Of a DNA stretch of 64,000 nucleotides, positions 15,052-64,000 are shown piece by piece; positions within the stretch are counted from its first letter, which is position 1, and every line of letters starts with the position of its first letter. The notes under the pieces were generated by a model. The model saw only the letters and a list, made by a program, of their open reading frames with translations, searched no databases and was not told where the DNA came from. The position numbers and the translations under genes are program-made. The stretch is from NCBI GenBank assembly GCA_000513055.1, contig AZYB01000002.1, positions 16,585 through 80,584 of the forward strand. Direction: 5' to 3'. This DNA comes from an alpha proteobacterium SCGC AAA288-N07 (lineage in GTDB: Bacteria; Pseudomonadota; Alphaproteobacteria; Pelagibacterales; Pelagibacteraceae).

Positions 15052-15953
15052 TGTTTAATTTAAAACCAGATATTCCTTTTATTAATTATTTTAGACTATT
15101 CAATATAATCTCATTAATATTAATTTTAATTTCCCTTGGATCAATTTTCTATAAAGGACTTAATTTTGGTGTAGATTTTAAAGGAGGCACTTTAATAGAG
15201 CTTAGAGTAGAGAATAAAGAGATAAGAATTTCTGAAGTAAGAGAAGCTTTTCTCAAAATGAATCTAGGCGATGTTAATGTCAAAAAATTTGGAAAAGAAG
15301 GTGACTATTTAATTAAATTTGAAAAAACTAAAAGCAATGATGAAAATTTTATAGAAAATATAAAAGATAAATTATTTAAAAATATGGGAGGTAATTTTAA
15401 TTTTAGGAGAGTTGAAAATGTAGGTCCTAAAGTTAGTGCCGAATTATTAAGGGCTGGCTTAATAGCGATAGTATTGTCTCTAACTGCTATGCTAATTTAT
15501 ATTTGGATCAGATTTGAATGGCAGTTTAGCTTAGGTGCAATTATAGCTTTGGTTCATGATGTAATTATTACGATTGGTTTTTTTTCTATTTTACAATTCG
15601 AAATAAACTTATCAATAATAGCAGCTGTTTTAACAATAGTGGGTTATTCTATGAATGATACAGTTGTTATTTTTGATCGAGTAAGAGAAAATTTGAAAAA
15701 ATATACATCGAAAAAAATTGAAGAAATTTCTAATCTTTCTATTAATGAAACACTTTCAAGAACTATAATAACGTCTTTAACCACTCTTCTAGCTTTACTA
15801 TCTATTTTCTTTTTTGGTGGAACAATATTGCACGGCTTTTCTTTTGCTATGATTTTGGGTGTTATTTTCGGGACTTATTCTTCAATATTTATAGCAAATC
15901 CAATACTAATAAAGCTGAAGGTTAATCAAAAGTCTGTTCTAAAAGAAGATTAA
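15051..15953 (+). CDS. secF: protein translocase subunit SecF
   Basis: GVDFKGGTLIELR, VGPKVSAELLRAG, YSMNDTVVIFDRVREN. Confidence 0.96.
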   Translation: MFNLKPDIPFINYFRLFNIISLILILISLGSIFYKGLNFGVDFKGGTLIELRVENKEIRISEVREAFLKMNLGDVNVKKFGKEGDYLIKFEKTKSNDENFIENIKDKLFKNMGGNFNFRRVENVGPKVSAELLRAGLIAIVLSLTAMLIYIWIRFEWQFSLGAIIALVHDVIITIGFFSILQFEINLSIIAAVLTIVGYSMNDTVVIFDRVRENLKKYTSKKIEEISNLSINETLSRTIITSLTTLLALLSIFFFGGTILHGFSFAMILGVIFGTYSSIFIANPILIKLKVNQKSVLKED

Positions 15954-15958
15954 ATTAA

Positions 15959-16558
15959 TTAATATAAATTTTGAGCTGCTACCATAGATAATAACATAGG
16001 TAGTGATAATAATGTATTCACTCTAGAAGCCAACACAGCTTTTTTTAACGATATAGGTTTCTCTTCAGGTGTAGCATCTACAATTCCTAGTACTTTTTTC
16101 TGATTTGGCCAAATGATAAACCAAACATTGAAAGCCATGATTAGACCCAGCCACATTCCAATACCTATAGCTGTGTTCTTTCCACCACCATTTCCTATTC
16201 CTAAAGCTAAAGCTTGATGAACATAACCATTTAAGTAAGCAACTATAAGTCCAGTCACTATTGTTGATAAAGCAGCCCACCTAAACCAGAATAGAACTGC
16301 AGGGGCTATTACCTTGGTAATAGCTGGCTTTTGTTCATCTGTAAATTTTGGCATACTTGGTATTTGAATAAAATTTAAATACCATAACAAGCCTATCCAC
16401 ATTACTCCCGAAATTACGTGAAAATATCTAAATAACCAGCTCCAGAAAAGTCTATCAAAAGATAGATCTCCACCAAAAAACAGACCCAAAAACAATAAAA
16501 CACTAATAGCAATTGATAAATGAATTGTCTTTGGTAAAGACTGAAGTATGTTAATCAT
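15959..16558 (-). CDS. urate hydroxylase PuuD-like membrane protein
   Basis: Polytopic; FRYFHVISGVMWIGLLWYLNFIQ, MAFNVWFIIWPNQKKVLG. Confidence 0.65.
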   Translation of the reverse strand: MINILQSLPKTIHLSIAISVLLFLGLFFGGDLSFDRLFWSWLFRYFHVISGVMWIGLLWYLNFIQIPSMPKFTDEQKPAITKVIAPAVLFWFRWAALSTIVTGLIVAYLNGYVHQALALGIGNGGGKNTAIGIGMWLGLIMAFNVWFIIWPNQKKVLGIVDATPEEKPISLKKAVLASRVNTLLSLPMLLSMVAAQNLY

Positions 16559-16597
16559 GATTCTTTGATAATTATACCATATCTCCGAAAGAAAAGA

Positions 16598-19474
16598 CTA
16601 TGCAATTTTCTTATAATTTTTCTTTAACATTTCCTTTAAAAAGTCACCCGTATAACTAACTTTTGAAAGGCTGATTTTTTCAGGATTGCCTTCAGCAATA
16701 ATTTCTCCTCCTTTAACACCTCCTTCAGGACCCATATCTACTATCCAATCAGCGGTCTTAATCACATCTAAATTATGTTCAATTACTATAACTGTATTAC
16801 CTAAACCAACAAAAGTTTGTAAAATTTCTAAAAGTTTTTTTATATCATGAGAATGAAGTCCAGTCGTAGGTTCATCAAGTATATACATTGTTCTTCCAGT
16901 CGAACGTTTAGATAATTCTTTTGCTAATTTAATTCTTTGAGCCTCTCCACCAGATAAGGTAGTGGCTTGTTGACCTATTTTAATATAGCCTAACCCAACT
17001 TTTTTAAGTGTAAGTAATTTTAACCTAATACTTGAGATATTTTCAAAAAAATCACAACCTTCATCAACGGTCATATTTAATATGTTTGATATATTTTTGT
17101 CTTTAAATTTTATTTCTAAGGTTTCCCTGTTATATCTACTTCCTTTACATTCATCACACGCTATATAAACATCAGGCAAAAAATGCATTTCATATGTAAT
17201 AACACCATCACCTTCGCAGGCTTCACATCTTCCACCCTTAACATTAAATGAAAATCTACCTGGCTTATAACCTCTTGTTTTTGACTCCGGCAGATTTGTA
17301 AACCAATCTCTAATTGGACCAAAAGCGCCAGTATACGTAGCAGGATTAGATCTTGGTGTCCTTCCGATCGGTGATTGATCAATATCAATGACTTTGTCTA
17401 TCATTTCAATTCCTTTATATCCTTTAAAAGGTTTAGGAATTTTACGAGATTTATTATTATTTAAAGTTAAGTTTAAAGCATTAAATAAAGTTTGTAAAAT
17501 CAGAGTAGATTTACCACTACCAGATACACCGGTAACACATGTAAAAGTTCCTAATGGAATTCTTAAATTAATATTTTTTAAATTATTTCCTGTAGCACCA
17601 GAAATTTCTAAAAACCTTCCGTTCTTTGCTGTTCTTCTAATTTTTGGAACAGGTATGCTCTTTTTTCTAGATAAATAATTTCCAGTAATACTTTTTTCGT
17701 TGTTGATAATATCTTCCAATTTCCCTTGAGCCACTACATATCCGCCATCTTTTCCAGCTTCGGGACCTAAATCGATAATATGATCAGCGCTTTCCATCGT
17801 TTCAATATCATGTTCAACTACAATAACAGTGTTTCCTAAATCTCTTAATCTCTTAAGAGCATTAATTAGTTTAATATTATCTTTTTGATGAAGACCTATA
17901 GAAGGTTCATCTAATACATATAAAACACCAGTCAAACCGGAACCAATTTGTGAAGCTAGTCTTATTCTTTGTCCCTCTCCTCCAGAAAGAGTTCCTGATT
18001 CTCTCGATAAAGATAAATAGTCTAAACCAACATTTAATAGAAAATTCAATCTTTCATTAATTTCCTTTAGTATATGTTTTGCAATTTTTTGATCTCTTTG
18101 CTCTAGTTTGTTATCTAGAGATTGAAACCATTTTTTTGCTTCAGTAATTGATTTTTTTGTTATTTCACTTATATTTTTTTTATCAATTTTTACGCAAAGA
18201 GCTTCATCTTTTAGACGTTGTCCGTTGCATCTTTCACAATTTGACTCAGTTTGATATTGAGCAATTTCTTCTCTCTTCCAGTCACTATCAGTTTCCAAAT
18301 ATCTTCTTTCTAGGTTATTAATTACACCTTCAAAAGTTTTTTTATTAGAATATTTCTCATAACCATCATCATATGTAAATTTAATTTCTTCATCATCAGA
18401 GCCATACAAAATTATTTCTTTTATTTTTTTTGATAAATTATTCCATGTTGATGTAAGAGAAAATTTATAATGCTTTGCTAATGATGATAAAGTTTGAGCA
18501 TAATATAAAGATGTACTTTTTGACCACGGCTCAATGGCTCCATCAGACAAAGTTTTTTTACCATTTGGCACGACAAGGTTTGGATCAACATTTAAATTTG
18601 CTCCAATTCCTTCACATTCTTCACAAGCACCATAAGGACTGTTAAATGAAAAAAGTCTCGGTTCAATTTCTTCTATTGTAAAACCACTTTCTGGACATGC
18701 AAATTTAGAAGAAAGAGTAATTTTTTCAATTTTTCTATATTTTTTTGGCAAAGTTTCGTTTTCATATTCAACAAAAAGAAGACCACCAGATAAATTAAGT
18801 GAAGTTTCAATGCTATCAGCTAGTCGATTTCCAAGATTTGAATTTATAACTATCCTATCCACTAAAATTGAAATTTCATGTTTGGTTTGTTTATTTAGTT
18901 CAGGAACATCATCAATATTGTATAAGGTCCCGTCTACTTTAATTTTTTGAAAACCTCTTTTTTTATAATTTAATATTTCTTTTTTATACTCTCCCTTTCT
19001 ACCCCTTACTATTGGTGAGAATAAATAAATTGTACTTTTTTTAGGAATCTCTAATATTTTGTCTACCATTTGAGAAACAGTTTGAGATTTAATTGGTTTT
19101 CCTGTGAAAGGAGAATATGGAATCCCTACTCGTGCATACAAAACTCTCATATAATCATAAATCTCTGTTACGGTAGCGACTATTGATCTTGGATTTTTTG
19201 GTGTATTTTTTTGTTCAATAGAGATTGCCGGGCTTAATCCTTCTATGAGATCGACATTTGGCTTTTTCATTTTATCTAAAAATTGCCTAGCATAAGCAGA
19301 TAAACTTTCTACATATCTTCTTTGACCCTCGGCATATACTGTATCGAATGCTAGAGATGATTTTCCTGACCCAGAAAGCCCTGTAATGACCACAAACTTG
19401 TCTTTTGGTATTTCTAGAGAAATATTCTTTAGGTTGTGTTCTTTAGCCCCTTTTATAACGATTTTTTTTATCAT
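16598..19474 (-). CDS. uvrA: excinuclease ABC subunit A
   Basis: [16 protein letters not shown], zinc-finger CxxC motifs, [24 protein letters not shown]. Confidence 0.97.
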
Positions 19475-31624: not shown

Positions 31625-33524
31625 TTATATTTTATTTCTTTTGTAAAAAACCCATTCATGTATTTCTTTGTGTCTTGAATAATTATCTAAAATATATTGA
31701 TAGGCATAGGGAAGTCTTTCAGAGGCATTTATGCCTCCAGAGAAATCTTGAGGACCATGCAAAAGAATATAATTGGGCTTTGAAATATTAAGTTCGTTAA
31801 TGAATTTTTTTTGATTTGTTTTTGAACCAAGTCCCCAAATAAAAAAGTATTTTGTACAAGTGGGTTTTTCAACAAGATATGGAATTGCAGCATCATAGTT
31901 AAAAATCTGTACACATTTATCGTCTTTAGTAATAAATTTATAATAATTTACTACATTTAAAAGTTTATCATCTAAATAATAATCATTCGGTGTATTGATA
32001 AATCTATTATATCTGGAATAGAAAGTTTTTATATTTTCTATATTTATTATTGGCCTAGTTGGGAAATATGCTTTAGGGCTATAGCCAATACTATATTTAG
32101 AAACTAAAAATAAAAAAAATATCTGAGCAATCATAATAGTTATAAAAATTGATTTATTAAATTTTTTATTAAACTGATTAAAGAAATTTTTCTTAATTTG
32201 TAAAATTTTATTAATAAAAAATATACTTAAAAAAATTAAAGGAAAACCAAAAGACTCCCTCATATGCGGTCCGTCAGACCTTGATAAAGCTTGAGAGTAT
32301 GAAACAACAGAAATTATAAAAACAAAAGATAAAAGTATTTTTGTTTGATTAGAGAATTTCTTGTCATTAAACACGAATAAATAAACCAAAATTAAGCCAC
32401 AAATTAAAATTGAAATAATAGTTTTGGTAGCTCTCCAAGAATTAGGTTCATCGGAAAATGGGACTGGATGAATTATTCCATCAATAAACCCATGATTTAA
32501 TAAAATTGAAAAACTATTATCTATAAAAAATTTAGCTTCATTTTGGGAGTTTATTGAAAAGAAAATAATCCAGCCTAAAAAAAAACCGGTAACAAGAAAA
32601 ATATTTTTTTTTATTTCTCCTCTAAAAATAAAAAGTAAAAATAATAAGAAAAGATTTAGATTTAAATATGCTCCTCTATCTAACCCCCAGAGAACTGATA
32701 GAACAGACATTGACCCTAATACAAAAGCAAAAAAATTTGAAAAATTTTTATTATCAATAACTTCTATTAAAAAAATTAAAAATATAACCAAAGGTAAATC
32801 TCGATAAAGCAATAAATGAGTTTCCCAAATATTAAAATTACTTAGGCTTAGGAATACAAAACTTAGTATCAAAAAAGATAAAATCTTTTTATTTTCCTCA
32901 AAGATAAATTTTTTAGTTATTTGATATGATAAAAAAAGTAGAGTTATTTTAAAAATAAGATTTAATACCAATACTTGAAATCTTGCAGCGCCAATCGTTT
33001 CTATACCTAGTAATTGCCATGTAAGAGATGTTACAAAAAGTTCAAGAAATACTCCAACCGTAATGTATGAACTGCTCCAATACCCGCCATTTATAAAGTT
33101 ATTAAACGCAGGAGTAAGTGATTGGCCTTCATGGTAAAGATCAATTGGCTTATCTGGAAAGTTTATTGAAAAAAATTCAAGAATAACATAGATAAAGAAT
33201 ATAATAAAAACTACTTTCCTTTTGTTTTTTTTTTCATTGATTTTATTTAATTGATTATTTTGAAATAAGTTATTTTTTATATTTTTTTAATGAACTTTTA
33301 ACAATAAATTTGCAACAGAGAAGGGCTACAAATATTGGAATAAAAATAAATATTAAATACCTCAAAACATCATTAACCGGGTTATAGCTGTGTATTGAAT
33401 ATTCTCCAATAATTTCTAGAGGATTTTCAAATGGTAAATAAATTTTATTCCACAAGAATGTTGTTAAAATGACTGAAGTAATAATTAAAATAAATGAAAT
33501 AAAAACTTTAATATAATTTTTCAT
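31625..33524 (-). CDS. polytopic membrane protein, possibly a glycan-related transferase; appears to be one gene broken by homopolymer indels (ORFs 33270..33551 and 31625..32971 plus an open frame between)
   Basis: The frame continues upstream of 32971 as NKRKVVFIIFFIYVILEFFSINFPDKPIDLYHEGQSLTPAFNNFINGGYWSSSYITVGVFLELFVTSLTWQLLGIETIGAARFQVLVLNLIFK; many TM segments. Confidence 0.55.
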
Positions 33525-49100: not shown

Positions 49101-50313
49101 AAATTACAAAGTACCTTATGGAGCAAAACTTTTTTATCAAAATGATGAAACTATTAAAAAAGGAATTAAAATTTGTGAGTGGGATCCATATACAATGCCA
49201 GTAATAGCTGAAAAAAGTGGTATAGCAAATTATGTGGATTTAATTGATGGAGTATCTTTAGCTGAAACAGTAGATGATGCTACCGGCATCTCTTCAAAAT
49301 CAGTTGTTGATTGGAGAGCACAATCAAAGAATACAGATTTGAAACCTAGGATAACTTTAAGAGATAAAGAAGGAAAAGTAATTAAAAAAGCCGACGATAA
49401 TGAAGCTAGATATTATTTAGTTCCTGATTCAATTTTATCAGTTAAAGATGGCCAAGAAGTTTTAGCTGGTGATGTAATTGCAAGATTGCCAAAAGAGACA
49501 TCAAAAACAAAAGATATAACTGGTGGCTTACCAAGAGTAGCTGAATTATTTGAAGCAAGAAAACCAAAAGAAAGTGCAATTATCGCTGAAAATGACGGAA
49601 GTATAATGTTTGGTAAAGAAGTTAGAGGCAAAATAAAGATATCAATTCAACCGTTACAAGGCGAAGCCTCAAACTATTTAATACCAAAAGGAAAGCACAT
49701 TAATTTTAACGAAGGAGAAAAAATTAAAAAGGGAGAATATTTGTTGGATGGTAGTCCAGCTCCACATGATATATTAAGAATTTTAGGCATAGAGCAATTA
49801 ACGGACTATTTTGTTAATGAAGTCCAAGATGTTTATCGTTTGCAGGGCGTAGTAATTAATGACAAGCATATCGAAGTTATTGTAAGACAAATGTTAAAAA
49901 AGATAGAAATTAAAGAATCAATGGATTCAAAATATTTACCTGGAGAGGTAATTGATAAAGATGAATTTGAAGAAGAGAACGAAAATTTATTAAAAAATAA
50001 AAAAATACCTGCTGTTGGAGAAAGGATTCTATTAGGTATTACCAAAGCATCTTTGCAAACTAATTCTTTTATTTCTGCAGCATCGTTCCAAGAAACTACT
50101 AGGGTTTTAACAGATGCCGCGATAAAAGGGAAAGTAGATATACTAAGAGGATTAAAAGAAAACGTTATAGTGGGTAGATTGGTTCCTTGTGGCACTGGTA
50201 TAGTTAAAAATAAGTGGAATAAATTAGCAAAAGAAAAAGATGAAAAATACCTTTCAGAAAAAGAAGCAGAAAAAGAAGCAGAAAAAATTTCAGAACAGTC
50301 AATAACTGCTTAA
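46132..50313 (+). CDS. rpoC: DNA-directed RNA polymerase subunit beta'
   Basis: 1393 aa; [37 protein letters not shown]. Confidence 0.97.
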
Positions 50314-50342
50314 TTACAGTTTATTTTTTATAACATTAATTA

Positions 50343-50371
50343 TTGACAACTTGCTATTCAATTAGTAATTT
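50343..50371 (+). promoter_or_regulatory. candidate sigma70-type promoter for rpsL-rpsG-fusA operon
   Basis: TTGACA (50343-50348), 17 nt spacer, TAATTT (50366-50371) in the 160 bp rpoC-rpsL gap. Confidence 0.5.
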
Positions 50372-50393
50372 AGCCAAAATTTATGGTTGGAAG

Positions 50394-50411
50394 TAAGGTT
50401 GATTTACCTTA
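50394..50411 (+). promoter_or_regulatory. small hairpin in rpsL leader
   Basis: TAAGGT - tgattt - ACCTTA downstream of the candidate promoter. Confidence 0.35.
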
Positions 50412-50473
50412 AACGCTGCCAGTAGTGTAGATCGGTCAATACCTTTTTTTTTCATCCAAAATTTATTTTAATT

Positions 50474-50845
50474 ATGCCAACAATTAACCAATTGATAAAA
50501 AATACAAGGATTAAACAAAAATTGAGAAATAAAGTACCTGCATTGGAACGTTCTCCACAAAAAAAGGGTGTGTGCATTAAAGTTTATACGACTACACCCA
50601 AAAAACCCAATTCGGCATTAAGAAAAGTTGCAAGGGTGAGACTCTCCAACGGACATGAAGTGACCTGTTATATTCCTGGAGAAGGGCATAATTTACAAGA
50701 ACATTCTGTTGTGCTTATCAGAGGTGGTCGGGTTAAGGATTTGCCTGGTGTTAGATATCATATATTGAGGGGAAATCTTGATACACAAGGTGTTGTAAAT
50801 CGTAAACAACAAAGATCGAAATATGGAGCAAAAAAACCTAAATAA
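50474..50845 (+). CDS. rpsL: 30S ribosomal protein S12
   Basis: [29 protein letters not shown]. Confidence 0.97.
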
Positions 50846-50854
50846 TTAATATTT

Positions 50855-51325
50855 ATGTCTAGAAAAAATAGAGCACCAAAAAGAATTATTTTAACTGATA
50901 CAAAGTACAAATCTGAACAAATTCTTAAATTAATGAATTCAATAATGTACGACGGAAAAAAAACTATTGCAGAAAAAATTGTTTATGAAGCGTTAGATAA
51001 ATTACAATCTAAATCAAAAGAAGAGCCAATAAAAATTTTTAATACTGCAATAAATAATATTAAACCTACTATTGAAGTGAGATCGAGAAGAGTAGGAGGA
51101 GCAACTTACCAAGTTCCTGTTGAAATTAAATACAAAAGATCTCAAGCTCTAGCGATCAGATGGTTAATTGCAGCTTCTAAAAAAAGAAAAGGTAAAATAA
51201 TGTCTGATAAAATTAGTTTTGAACTTTTTGATGCATATCAAGGAAAAGGTTTTGCAATAAAGAAAAAAGAAGATACTCATAGAATGGCTGAGTCGAATAA
51301 AGCATTTGCACATTTTAGATGGTAA
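50855..51325 (+). CDS. rpsG: 30S ribosomal protein S7
   Basis: VRSRRVGGATYQVPVEIKYKRSQALAIRWLI. Confidence 0.97.
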   Translation: MSRKNRAPKRIILTDTKYKSEQILKLMNSIMYDGKKTIAEKIVYEALDKLQSKSKEEPIKIFNTAINNIKPTIEVRSRRVGGATYQVPVEIKYKRSQALAIRWLIAASKKRKGKIMSDKISFELFDAYQGKGFAIKKKEDTHRMAESNKAFAHFRW

Positions 51326-51331
51326 TTAAAA

Positions 51332-53407
51332 ATGAGTAGAACACACACATTAGATAAATATAGAAATATTGGTATTATGGCTCATATTGATGCGGGCAAA
51401 ACAACTACAACAGAAAGAATTCTATATTATACGGGTAAAAGTCATAAAATTGGCGAAGTGCATGATGGTGCTGCTACTATGGATTGGATGGAGCAAGAAC
51501 AAGAGAGAGGAATCACAATTACATCTGCAGCAACAACTTGTTATTGGAAAGAACACAGAATTAATATTATTGATACACCTGGTCATATTGATTTTACTAT
51601 TGAAGTAGAAAGATCTTTAAAGGTATTAGATGGTGCCATAGCAGTATTTGATGGTGTTGCTGGGGTAGAGCCTCAATCAGAACAAGTTTGGAGGCAAGCA
51701 GATAAATACAAAGTTCCGCGGATTTGTTTTGTAAATAAGCTTGATAGAACTGGAGCAGATTTTTTTAGATGTGTTGAAATGATAAAAGATCGCCTTGGAT
51801 CAAAACCATTAGTAATGCAAATACCAGCAGGAATAGAAGCTTCCCTCAAAGGTATAGTTGACCTAGTTAAAATGAAAGCTGTTTTATGGAAAGAAGAAAA
51901 ATTAGGTGCAGAATTTGAATATGCTGAGATACCACAGGAATTACAAGAACAGGCTAATAAATATAGAAAAGAATTAGTAGAAACAGCAGTTGAACAAGAT
52001 GAAAAATTAATGGAGGAATATTTAAATGGAAAAGAAATATCAGAGTCTGATTTAATATTCTGTGTTAGAAAAGGCAATTTAAAATTTGATTTTGTGCCTG
52101 TATTAGCTGGTTCAGCATTTAAAAATAAAGGTGTGCAACCACTATTAGATGCTGTGGTAGATTTTTTACCAAGTCCAAAAGATTTAGGTTTAATTAAGGG
52201 AACAAAACCAAATTCAAAGGATGAAATTGAAAGAAAATTTGATGATAAAGAACCCTTTTCTGCTTTGGCATTTAAAGTTGCTACAGACCCTTTTGTTGGG
52301 ACTTTAACTTTTATACGAATATATTCTGGAACTTTAAAATCAGGTACCGGAATTTATAATACTAGCAAAGATAAAGAAGAAAGAGTCGGCAGAATGTTAT
52401 TAATGCATGCCAATAATAGAGAAGATGTAAAAGAAGCTAGTGTTGGTGATATTGTGGCTTTAGCAGGATTAAAATATACAATAACAGGACATACTTTATC
52501 TGATGAAGATAATCCTATTGTTTTAGAACCAATGGATTTTCCAGATCCAGTTCTTGAAATTGCAGTTGAGCCCAAAACTAAAGCAGATCAAGAAAAAATG
52601 GGAGAAGCTCTAGGCAGACTAGCAAGAGAAGACCCATCTTTTAGAGTAGCGTCTGATGAAGAATCTGGTCAAACAATCATAAAAGGCATGGGTGAATTAC
52701 ATCTAGATATTATAGTCGACCGAATGAAAAGAGAATTTAAGGTTGAAGCAAATATTGGAGCACCACAAGTAGCCTATAGGGAAACGATATTGGGTAACGC
52801 TGAATTTGATTATATTCATAAAAAACAAAGTGGTGGTGCGGGACAATTTGCAAGAGTAAAGCTTGCAGTTGAGCCGCTAGAACCTGGAAAAGGAAGAATA
52901 ATTGAAAATAAGATTAAGGGTGGAGCTATTCCAAGAGAATTTATACCAGGAGTGGAAAAAGGAATAGAGAGTGTTTCTGACTCTGGAATTTTAGCTGGAT
53001 TTCCAATCATTGATTATAAAGTAACTATAGTTGATGGCTTGCATCATGATGTTGATTCAAGTGTCTTGGCTTTCGAAATAGCATCAAGACACTGTTTTAA
53101 AGAAGCATGTATAAGGGGTACTTTAAAACTTCTTGAACCTATTATGAGAGTAGAAGTTGTTACACCAGAAGATTATATGGGAGATGTTATTGGTGACTTA
53201 AATAGTCGAAGAGGACAGGTTGGAGGGACTGAACCCAGAAGCAATGTAACAGTAATAACAGCAATGGTACCTCTTGCTAATATGTTTGGTTATGTAAATA
53301 ATTTGAGATCTATGTCTCAAGGAAGAGCACAGTATTCGATGTTCTTTGATCATTATGAAAAAGTACCACAAAATGTTCAAGAAGAAGTAACAAAAAAAAT
53401 GGCTTAA
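51332..53407 (+). CDS. fusA: elongation factor G
   Basis: [42 protein letters not shown]. Confidence 0.97.
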
Positions 53408-53727: not shown

Positions 53728-54483
53728 ATGTCAAAGATTGGATTAATTGGAAAAAAAATTGGAATGAGTAGAGAGTTTTTACCTATGGGAATGTCTATTC
53801 CAGTTACAGTTATAAAAGTAGAAAAAGGAAGAGTTATAGACGTAATTACAAAAGATAAAAGAGGATATGATGCTATACGAGTTGGTTTTGGGAAAATTAA
53901 GTCATCCAAATTAACTAAATCTATGAAAGGTTTTTTTAGCAAAAGAAACACAGAACCTAAAAGGTATTTAAAAGAATATAGAGTAAAAAACATATCAAAT
54001 TATAAAGAAGGAAATGAAATTGGATTAGAAATTTTTAAAGATACCAAATTTGTTGATGCAACATCAAAAACTATTGGAAAAGGATTTGCTGGAGTTATGA
54101 AAAGACATAATTTTTCAGGATTAAGGGCGTCACATGGTGTATCAGTCTCGCATAGATCAGGCGGTTCAACTGGCCAGAGGCAAGATCCAGGAAAGGTATT
54201 TAAAGGAAAAAAAATGCCTGGCCACATGGGCGATAAATTTAGAACAATTTTAAATCTTGAGGTGATTAAATCTGATTTGAACAATGATTTAATATATTTA
54301 AAAGGTTCGATACCAGGCACGAAAAATACATTAGTTTTCTTAAAAAATTCAGTTAAAACAATTATAAAAGCTAAAAGATTATCAAAAACAATGGACGTGG
54401 AAAAGGAAACGTCTTCAAGAACAAAAGAAAACAAAGAGTTAACTAAAAAACAGGAAGAGACAAAAGATAATAAAAGTAAATAA
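53728..54483 (+). CDS. rplC: 50S ribosomal protein L3
   Basis: [49 protein letters not shown]; charged C-terminal tail. Confidence 0.96.
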
Positions 54484-54486
54484 CAA

Positions 54487-55117
54487 ATGAAAGTAAATAG
54501 TATTAGTATAAATGGAAAGACAGCAGAGTTTGAAATATCAGAAAAAATATTTTTTTCAGATATTAATAATAAATTAATTGCGCATGTGCTTTATTCTCAA
54601 ATAGCAAATTCTAAACAAAGAGTTGCTAAAACAAAACAAAGAAATGAAATAATAGGTTCTACCGCAAAAATTTATGCTCAAAAAGGTACTGGTAACGCAA
54701 GGCACGCTAGTAAAAAAGCCCCAATTTTTGTTGGTGGTGGAGTAGCTCATGGCCCCAAGGGAAATACTCATAAAATTAAAAAGATGAATAAAAAAGGTAA
54801 AAGAAAGAGCTTAATAAGCGCTATATCTCAAAAAACAAAAGATAAAAATTTAATTATATTTGAAGACGTTAATGAAAAAATCGATAAAACGAAAAAATTT
54901 GATAAATTTTTAAAGAAAAATAAAATAAATGATGTTTTAATTGTTTTAGATCCTATATCTAAAAAAAAATATAGAATTATCAGCAAAAAATATTCCTAAC
55001 ATAAAATTAATTGATACATCATACCTAGGTACCCAAGATATTTTAAAATATAAGCAAATTATGTTCTCCAAATCCTCTGCTAAAGAATTAGAAAAAAGGC
55101 TTTTAAATTATGAATAA
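54487..55117 (+). CDS. rplD: 50S ribosomal protein L4, split by an apparent +1 frameshift at A9 (54961-54969)
   Basis: ORF 54487..54999 (GTGNARHASKKAPIFVGGGVAHGPKG); other frame continues [49 protein letters not shown], overlapping rplW start. Confidence 0.95.
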
Positions 55118-63492: not shown

Positions 63493-63905
63493 ATGAATCT
63501 AATAATGTTTGGTTCCCCGGGCGCGGGGAAAGGCACTCAATCAAATAAGATAATAAATGATTTTGATTTGAAGCAAGTATCTACAGGAGATTTATTAAGA
63601 AATGAGATTAAACTCCAAACTAATATAGGTAAAAAAGCTGAACCAATTATAAGTAGCGGTGGATTGGTATCAGATGATATAGTCAACTCATTAATTGAAA
63701 AAAATATTTCATATCATAATAATTTTAAAGGACTTATTTTTGACGGATATCCAAGAACAATGCCACAAGTTTATAGCTTAGAAAAATCACTAAAAAAATT
63801 TAATCAAAAAATTTCACTAGTAATTAGTTTAACTATTGAAAAAAACGTTATTTTAAAACGAATTAATGGTAGAATTATTTGCACCAAGTGTACTAAAATA
63901 TTTAA
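63493..63905 (+). CDS. adk: adenylate kinase, truncated at a chimeric junction near 63906-63915 (tracked ORF end 63945 is artificial)
   Basis: MNLIMFGSPGAGKGTQSNKI, STGDLLRNEI, FDGYPRTMPQ, RIICTKCTKIFNIYF; the following bases belong to an inverted copy of rplC. Confidence 0.92.
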
Positions 63906-64000
63906 TATTTACTTTTATTATCTTTTGTCTCTTCCTGTTTTTTAGTTAACTCTTTGTTTTCTTTTGTTCTTGAAGACGTTTCCTTTTCCACGTCCATTGT
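63906..64000 (-). repeat. 95 bp exact inverted copy of rplC 3' end (54388-54482)
   Basis: 63906-64000 tatttacttttattatc...ccacgtccattgt is the reverse complement of 54388-54482 acaatggacgtgg...gataataaaagtaaata. Confidence 0.96.

Follow-up and report, generated by a model that had tools for sequence, protein, structure and literature searches.

The adk and rplC genes at the end of contig C2

The window, by which we mean the whole 64,000-nt stretch of DNA that was analyzed, corresponds to positions 16585-80584 of contig C2. As this contig is 80,584 bp long, the window end is also the physical end of the contig, and the assembly consequently offers no extension beyond base 64000. The window is AT-rich (28% G+C) and belongs to a draft assembly of 81 contigs totalling 955 kb, which is 66% complete. 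Two genes within it are linked by a stretch of shared sequence (Table 1). The first, rplC, is present as one full copy, directly followed at its end by the next gene with no break, and is accompanied by a 31-codon antisense fragment at the contig terminus. The second, adk, lies at the very tip of the contig and is interrupted there.

Table 1 Coordinates of features in the window, and contig ends of the assembly carrying terminal copies (s, start; e, end of the contig)
Feature	Position	Strand	Basis or remark
Intact rplC (ribosomal protein L3)	53728..54483	+	single full copy besides the terminal fragment
Source arm: native rplC 3′ end, codons 221-251 plus two stop-codon bases	54388..54482	+	exact match to the terminal copy
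Native 5′ part of adk (adenylate kinase), codons 1-141, cut by the junction	63493..63915	+	comparison with relatives; adk starts at 63493
Junction microhomology zone TATTTACTTT, up to 10 nt, fitting both adk and reverse-complemented rplC	63906..63915	+	
Artificial codons YYLLSLPVF plus stop, from the rplC antisense strand	63916..63945	+	translation; stop of the chimeric reading frame at 63943-63945
Artefactual terminal copy of the rplC 3′ end	63906..64000	-	exact 95-nt reverse complement at the contig end
Ends with a terminal exact copy of 95 nt	C1e, C2e, C4e, C6s, C6e, C7e, C9s, C10s, C11s, C12s, C13s, C14e, C15e, C26s, C29e, C30s, C35e, C42e		
Ends with an inverted copy within their own contig	C1e, C2e, C4e, C6s, C6e, C7s, C9s, C10s, C10e, C11s, C12s, C14e, C15e, C16e, C23e, C28s, C29s		

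The initial annotation had reported that the last 95 nt of the window are an exact reverse complement of the rplC 3′ end and that the match breaks at base 63905. A scripted match within the window reproduced both statements: the 95-nt identity is complete, whereas a 96-base query taken from the window end has no reverse-complement match, identity ending at base 63905. Allowing two mismatches extends the arms to 54388-54488 and 63900-64000 (101 nt, 98%). The two exact arms are separated by 9,423 bases. When 400 random interior 95-mers were treated in the same manner, their reverse-complement matches to the window extended to 21 nt at most, the majority falling between 11 and 14 nt, which rules out chance as the origin of a 95-nt match. 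The sequence as supplied thus does contain the duplication.

The reading of adk as intact up to an artificial tail was likewise borne out. The encoded protein is native through the motif FNxYF, after which relatives continue with N/D-P-P and the window with YYLLSLPVF and a stop codon. Since the antisense match starts at 63906 and adk remains native to about 63915, the junction must fall within a zone of no more than about 10 nt. The short microhomology suspected at the join therefore holds at up to this length, and TTTACTTT also occurs in the native adk of relative L026. The junction sits on the contig tip and not in the contig interior.

What should follow adk is missing. A search of the assembly returned one adenylate kinase match in its own genome, namely the truncated copy, with no second intact adk, and zero matches to ribosomal protein S13 (rpsM); by comparison, 13 of 14 genomes used as controls possess both families. 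The assembly accordingly lacks the adk tail and rpsM. Nor was a reciprocal junction, joining the rplC 3′ end to the adk tail, seen at the source locus, where rplC continues normally. With rplC intact in place and the adk tail and rpsM missing, the arrangement is not a reciprocal inversion.

Comparison with congeners

Comparison of adk with its relatives revealed an arrangement unlike that of the window: in all four congeners adk is complete (216 aa), and rpsM follows after 61 nt. All four also possess rplC as a single copy. Three of them (G001, G002 and G003) align unbroken with the last 12-13 kb of the window, and all three diverge from it at 63915-63918.

In the fourth congener, G004, a contig designated C9 in that genome is collinear with G002 up to position 15773 and then continues as the inverted G002 segment 37172-19517. 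At its tip, bases 15527-15773 of the same contig recur in inverted form over 247 nt (227 nt exact; arms 15527-15773 and 33195-33440). These breakpoints lie in the same ribosomal operon region, yet differ from those of adk and rplC. The G004 join could be an artefact of the same kind as the C2 tip or a genuine inversion carried by that genome, and it gives no support for an inversion between rplC and adk.

Terminal copies across the assembly

Exact copies of terminal sequence were sought for the 84 ends of the 42 readable contigs, which are all but the 39 smallest of the 81. The resulting end counts are lower bounds, in that the interiors of large contigs were searched only for the first 32 query ends and only the best 40 candidates were scored. 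At least 18 of the 84 ends terminate in sequence that is copied exactly elsewhere over precisely 95 nt. An inverted copy within the same contig, about 0.7-12 kb away, was found at no fewer than 17 of the 84 (13 of these 17 at under 10 kb), meaning that at least 16 further ends resemble that of C2. Direct rather than inverted copies occur at C13s and C14s and in the self-overlaps of C5 and C21.

A control on 256 kb of fully read contigs revealed four inverted exact repeats of at least 40 nt (in C2, C23, C28 and C29), every one with an arm at a contig end and none wholly interior. Furthermore, a terminal overlap of exactly 95 nt joins the end of C42 to the start of C30, which is the signature of adjacent edges in a graph with k = 95. 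Terminal copies of 62, 78, 84, 87, 90, 94, 262, 542 and 1655 nt were also encountered, and a simple rule of one vertex per end thus does not cover every end.

This assembly-wide pattern is the decisive evidence that the tip of C2 is an artefact. It also takes the analysis beyond the initial annotation, for the fixed length of 95 nt is seen repeatedly in this assembly, as expected of a constant set by the assembler.

A probable amplification chimera terminated by graph assembly

Taken as a whole, our findings leave little doubt that the tip of C2 is an artefact of whole-genome amplification (multiple displacement amplification, MDA) combined with graph assembly, the chimera being read from the assembled sequence. 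As one cell was being amplified by MDA, a nascent strand whose end lay in adk (...TTTACTTT-3′, at about 63915) would have been displaced. The displaced end could then have annealed, via up to about 10 nt, to the single-stranded rplC 3′ end 9.4 kb away on the same molecule, and extension of the annealed strand would have yielded an inverted, non-reciprocal join. The true continuation through the adk tail and rpsM would not have been recovered, and it is this sequence that the assembly lacks.

A graph assembler presented with chimeric reads stops where its path meets the genuine locus, at a vertex of k bases. In the present case it would have pursued the chimeric reads as far as the first k-mer that also occurs at the true rplC site, and would have stopped the contig there; a contig ending on a shared vertex carries a duplicate exactly one k-mer long, here 95 nt. 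The artefact therefore probably terminates on a de Bruijn vertex with k = 95, a setting that we infer from the observed recurrence of this length; a literature search did not find a paper naming assembler settings of k = 95. SPAdes-type de Bruijn graph assemblers give contig-end overlaps of length k, and the terminal copies described here likewise share one constant exact length at many ends. The end of C2 differs in that its overlap partner lies inside the contig and on the other strand, as is to be expected of a chimeric edge.

The initial annotation had raised the possibility of an MDA-type inverted chimera, and orientation, distance, microhomology, the lost adk tail and rpsM, congener collinearity and the 16 other ends all fit it. 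Among 475 chimeras from a single E. coli cell amplified with phi29, 85% had the inverted orientation. The distance between the joined segments was less than 10 kb in 337 of 406 inverted chimeras, and complementarity of 2-21 nt was present at most junctions (Lasken and Stockwell 2007, PMC1855051). The tip of C2 shares the inverted second segment, a distance that fits the typical range with the intervening sequence skipped, a microhomology within the published limits and the non-reciprocal nature of the join. Many such chimeras are expected per amplified sample, in keeping with the 17 inverted contig ends. A difference from the published chimeras is that the C2 join is known from the assembled contig, not from reads.

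It is conceivable, though very improbable, that a pure misjoin by the assembler produced the same structure with no chimeric molecule involved, the roughly 10 nt of shared sequence having bridged adk to antisense rplC. The terminal 95-nt rule does show that the graph has shaped the contig ends, and some equal-length overlaps, such as that between C30 and C42, represent ordinary graph adjacency. However, a microhomology of 10 nt is far shorter than k = 95, so that a graph assembler would have required reads crossing the junction; moreover, the marked predominance of partners that are inverted and close by is a signature of amplification and not of the assembler.

It is barely credible that the chromosome of this cell really carries an inversion, or an inverted duplication, that cuts adk and duplicates the end of rplC. 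The assembled sequence does read in this way, and G004 is also inverted in the operon region, albeit with other breakpoints and with the same contig-end signature. However, the normal passage of rplC into its neighbor leaves the reciprocal junction absent, adk is normally essential and the assembly offers no further copy of it, G001, G002 and G003 keep their collinearity throughout this region, and a like structure stands at the other 16 contig ends. We consider it equally far-fetched that a genuine inverted duplication running from adk codon 141 into antisense rplC was rendered viable by an adk located in the third of the genome that the assembly does not cover.

Implications for contig ends and other terminal repeats

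The terminal copy created by amplification and graph assembly is not biology, and the initial annotation was correct in detecting an artefact. Our analysis is a caution and not a discovery, with no biological content beyond a warning on the contig ends of this draft. Genes lying within about 100 bases of its contig ends, and sometimes within several hundred, may have false ends, while terminal copies, whether inverted or direct, could pass for inverted repeats, truncated genes or circular plasmids. A simple check is to look for exact terminal copies that share one constant length.

Contig C5 has an exact terminal direct repeat of 1,655 bp (1-1655 and 50136-51790) and would look circular, at about 50.1 kb. 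We rejected its identification as a plasmid or phage circle, given that it holds chromosomal gyrB, glutamate synthase, PDH E1 and tRNA synthetase genes; it is probably a false circle arising from a direct chimera or a graph loop.

Bases 1-515 of contig C14 are repeated directly and exactly over at least 515 nt at 16986-17500, 17 kb inside the same contig, either as a real repeat or as a direct chimera. Contig C21 (L046) displays short direct internal repeats (1-1013 and 16405-16743) in addition to its 87-nt terminal direct repeat, and possibly represents a repetitive gene, with the repeats having caused the assembly to break.
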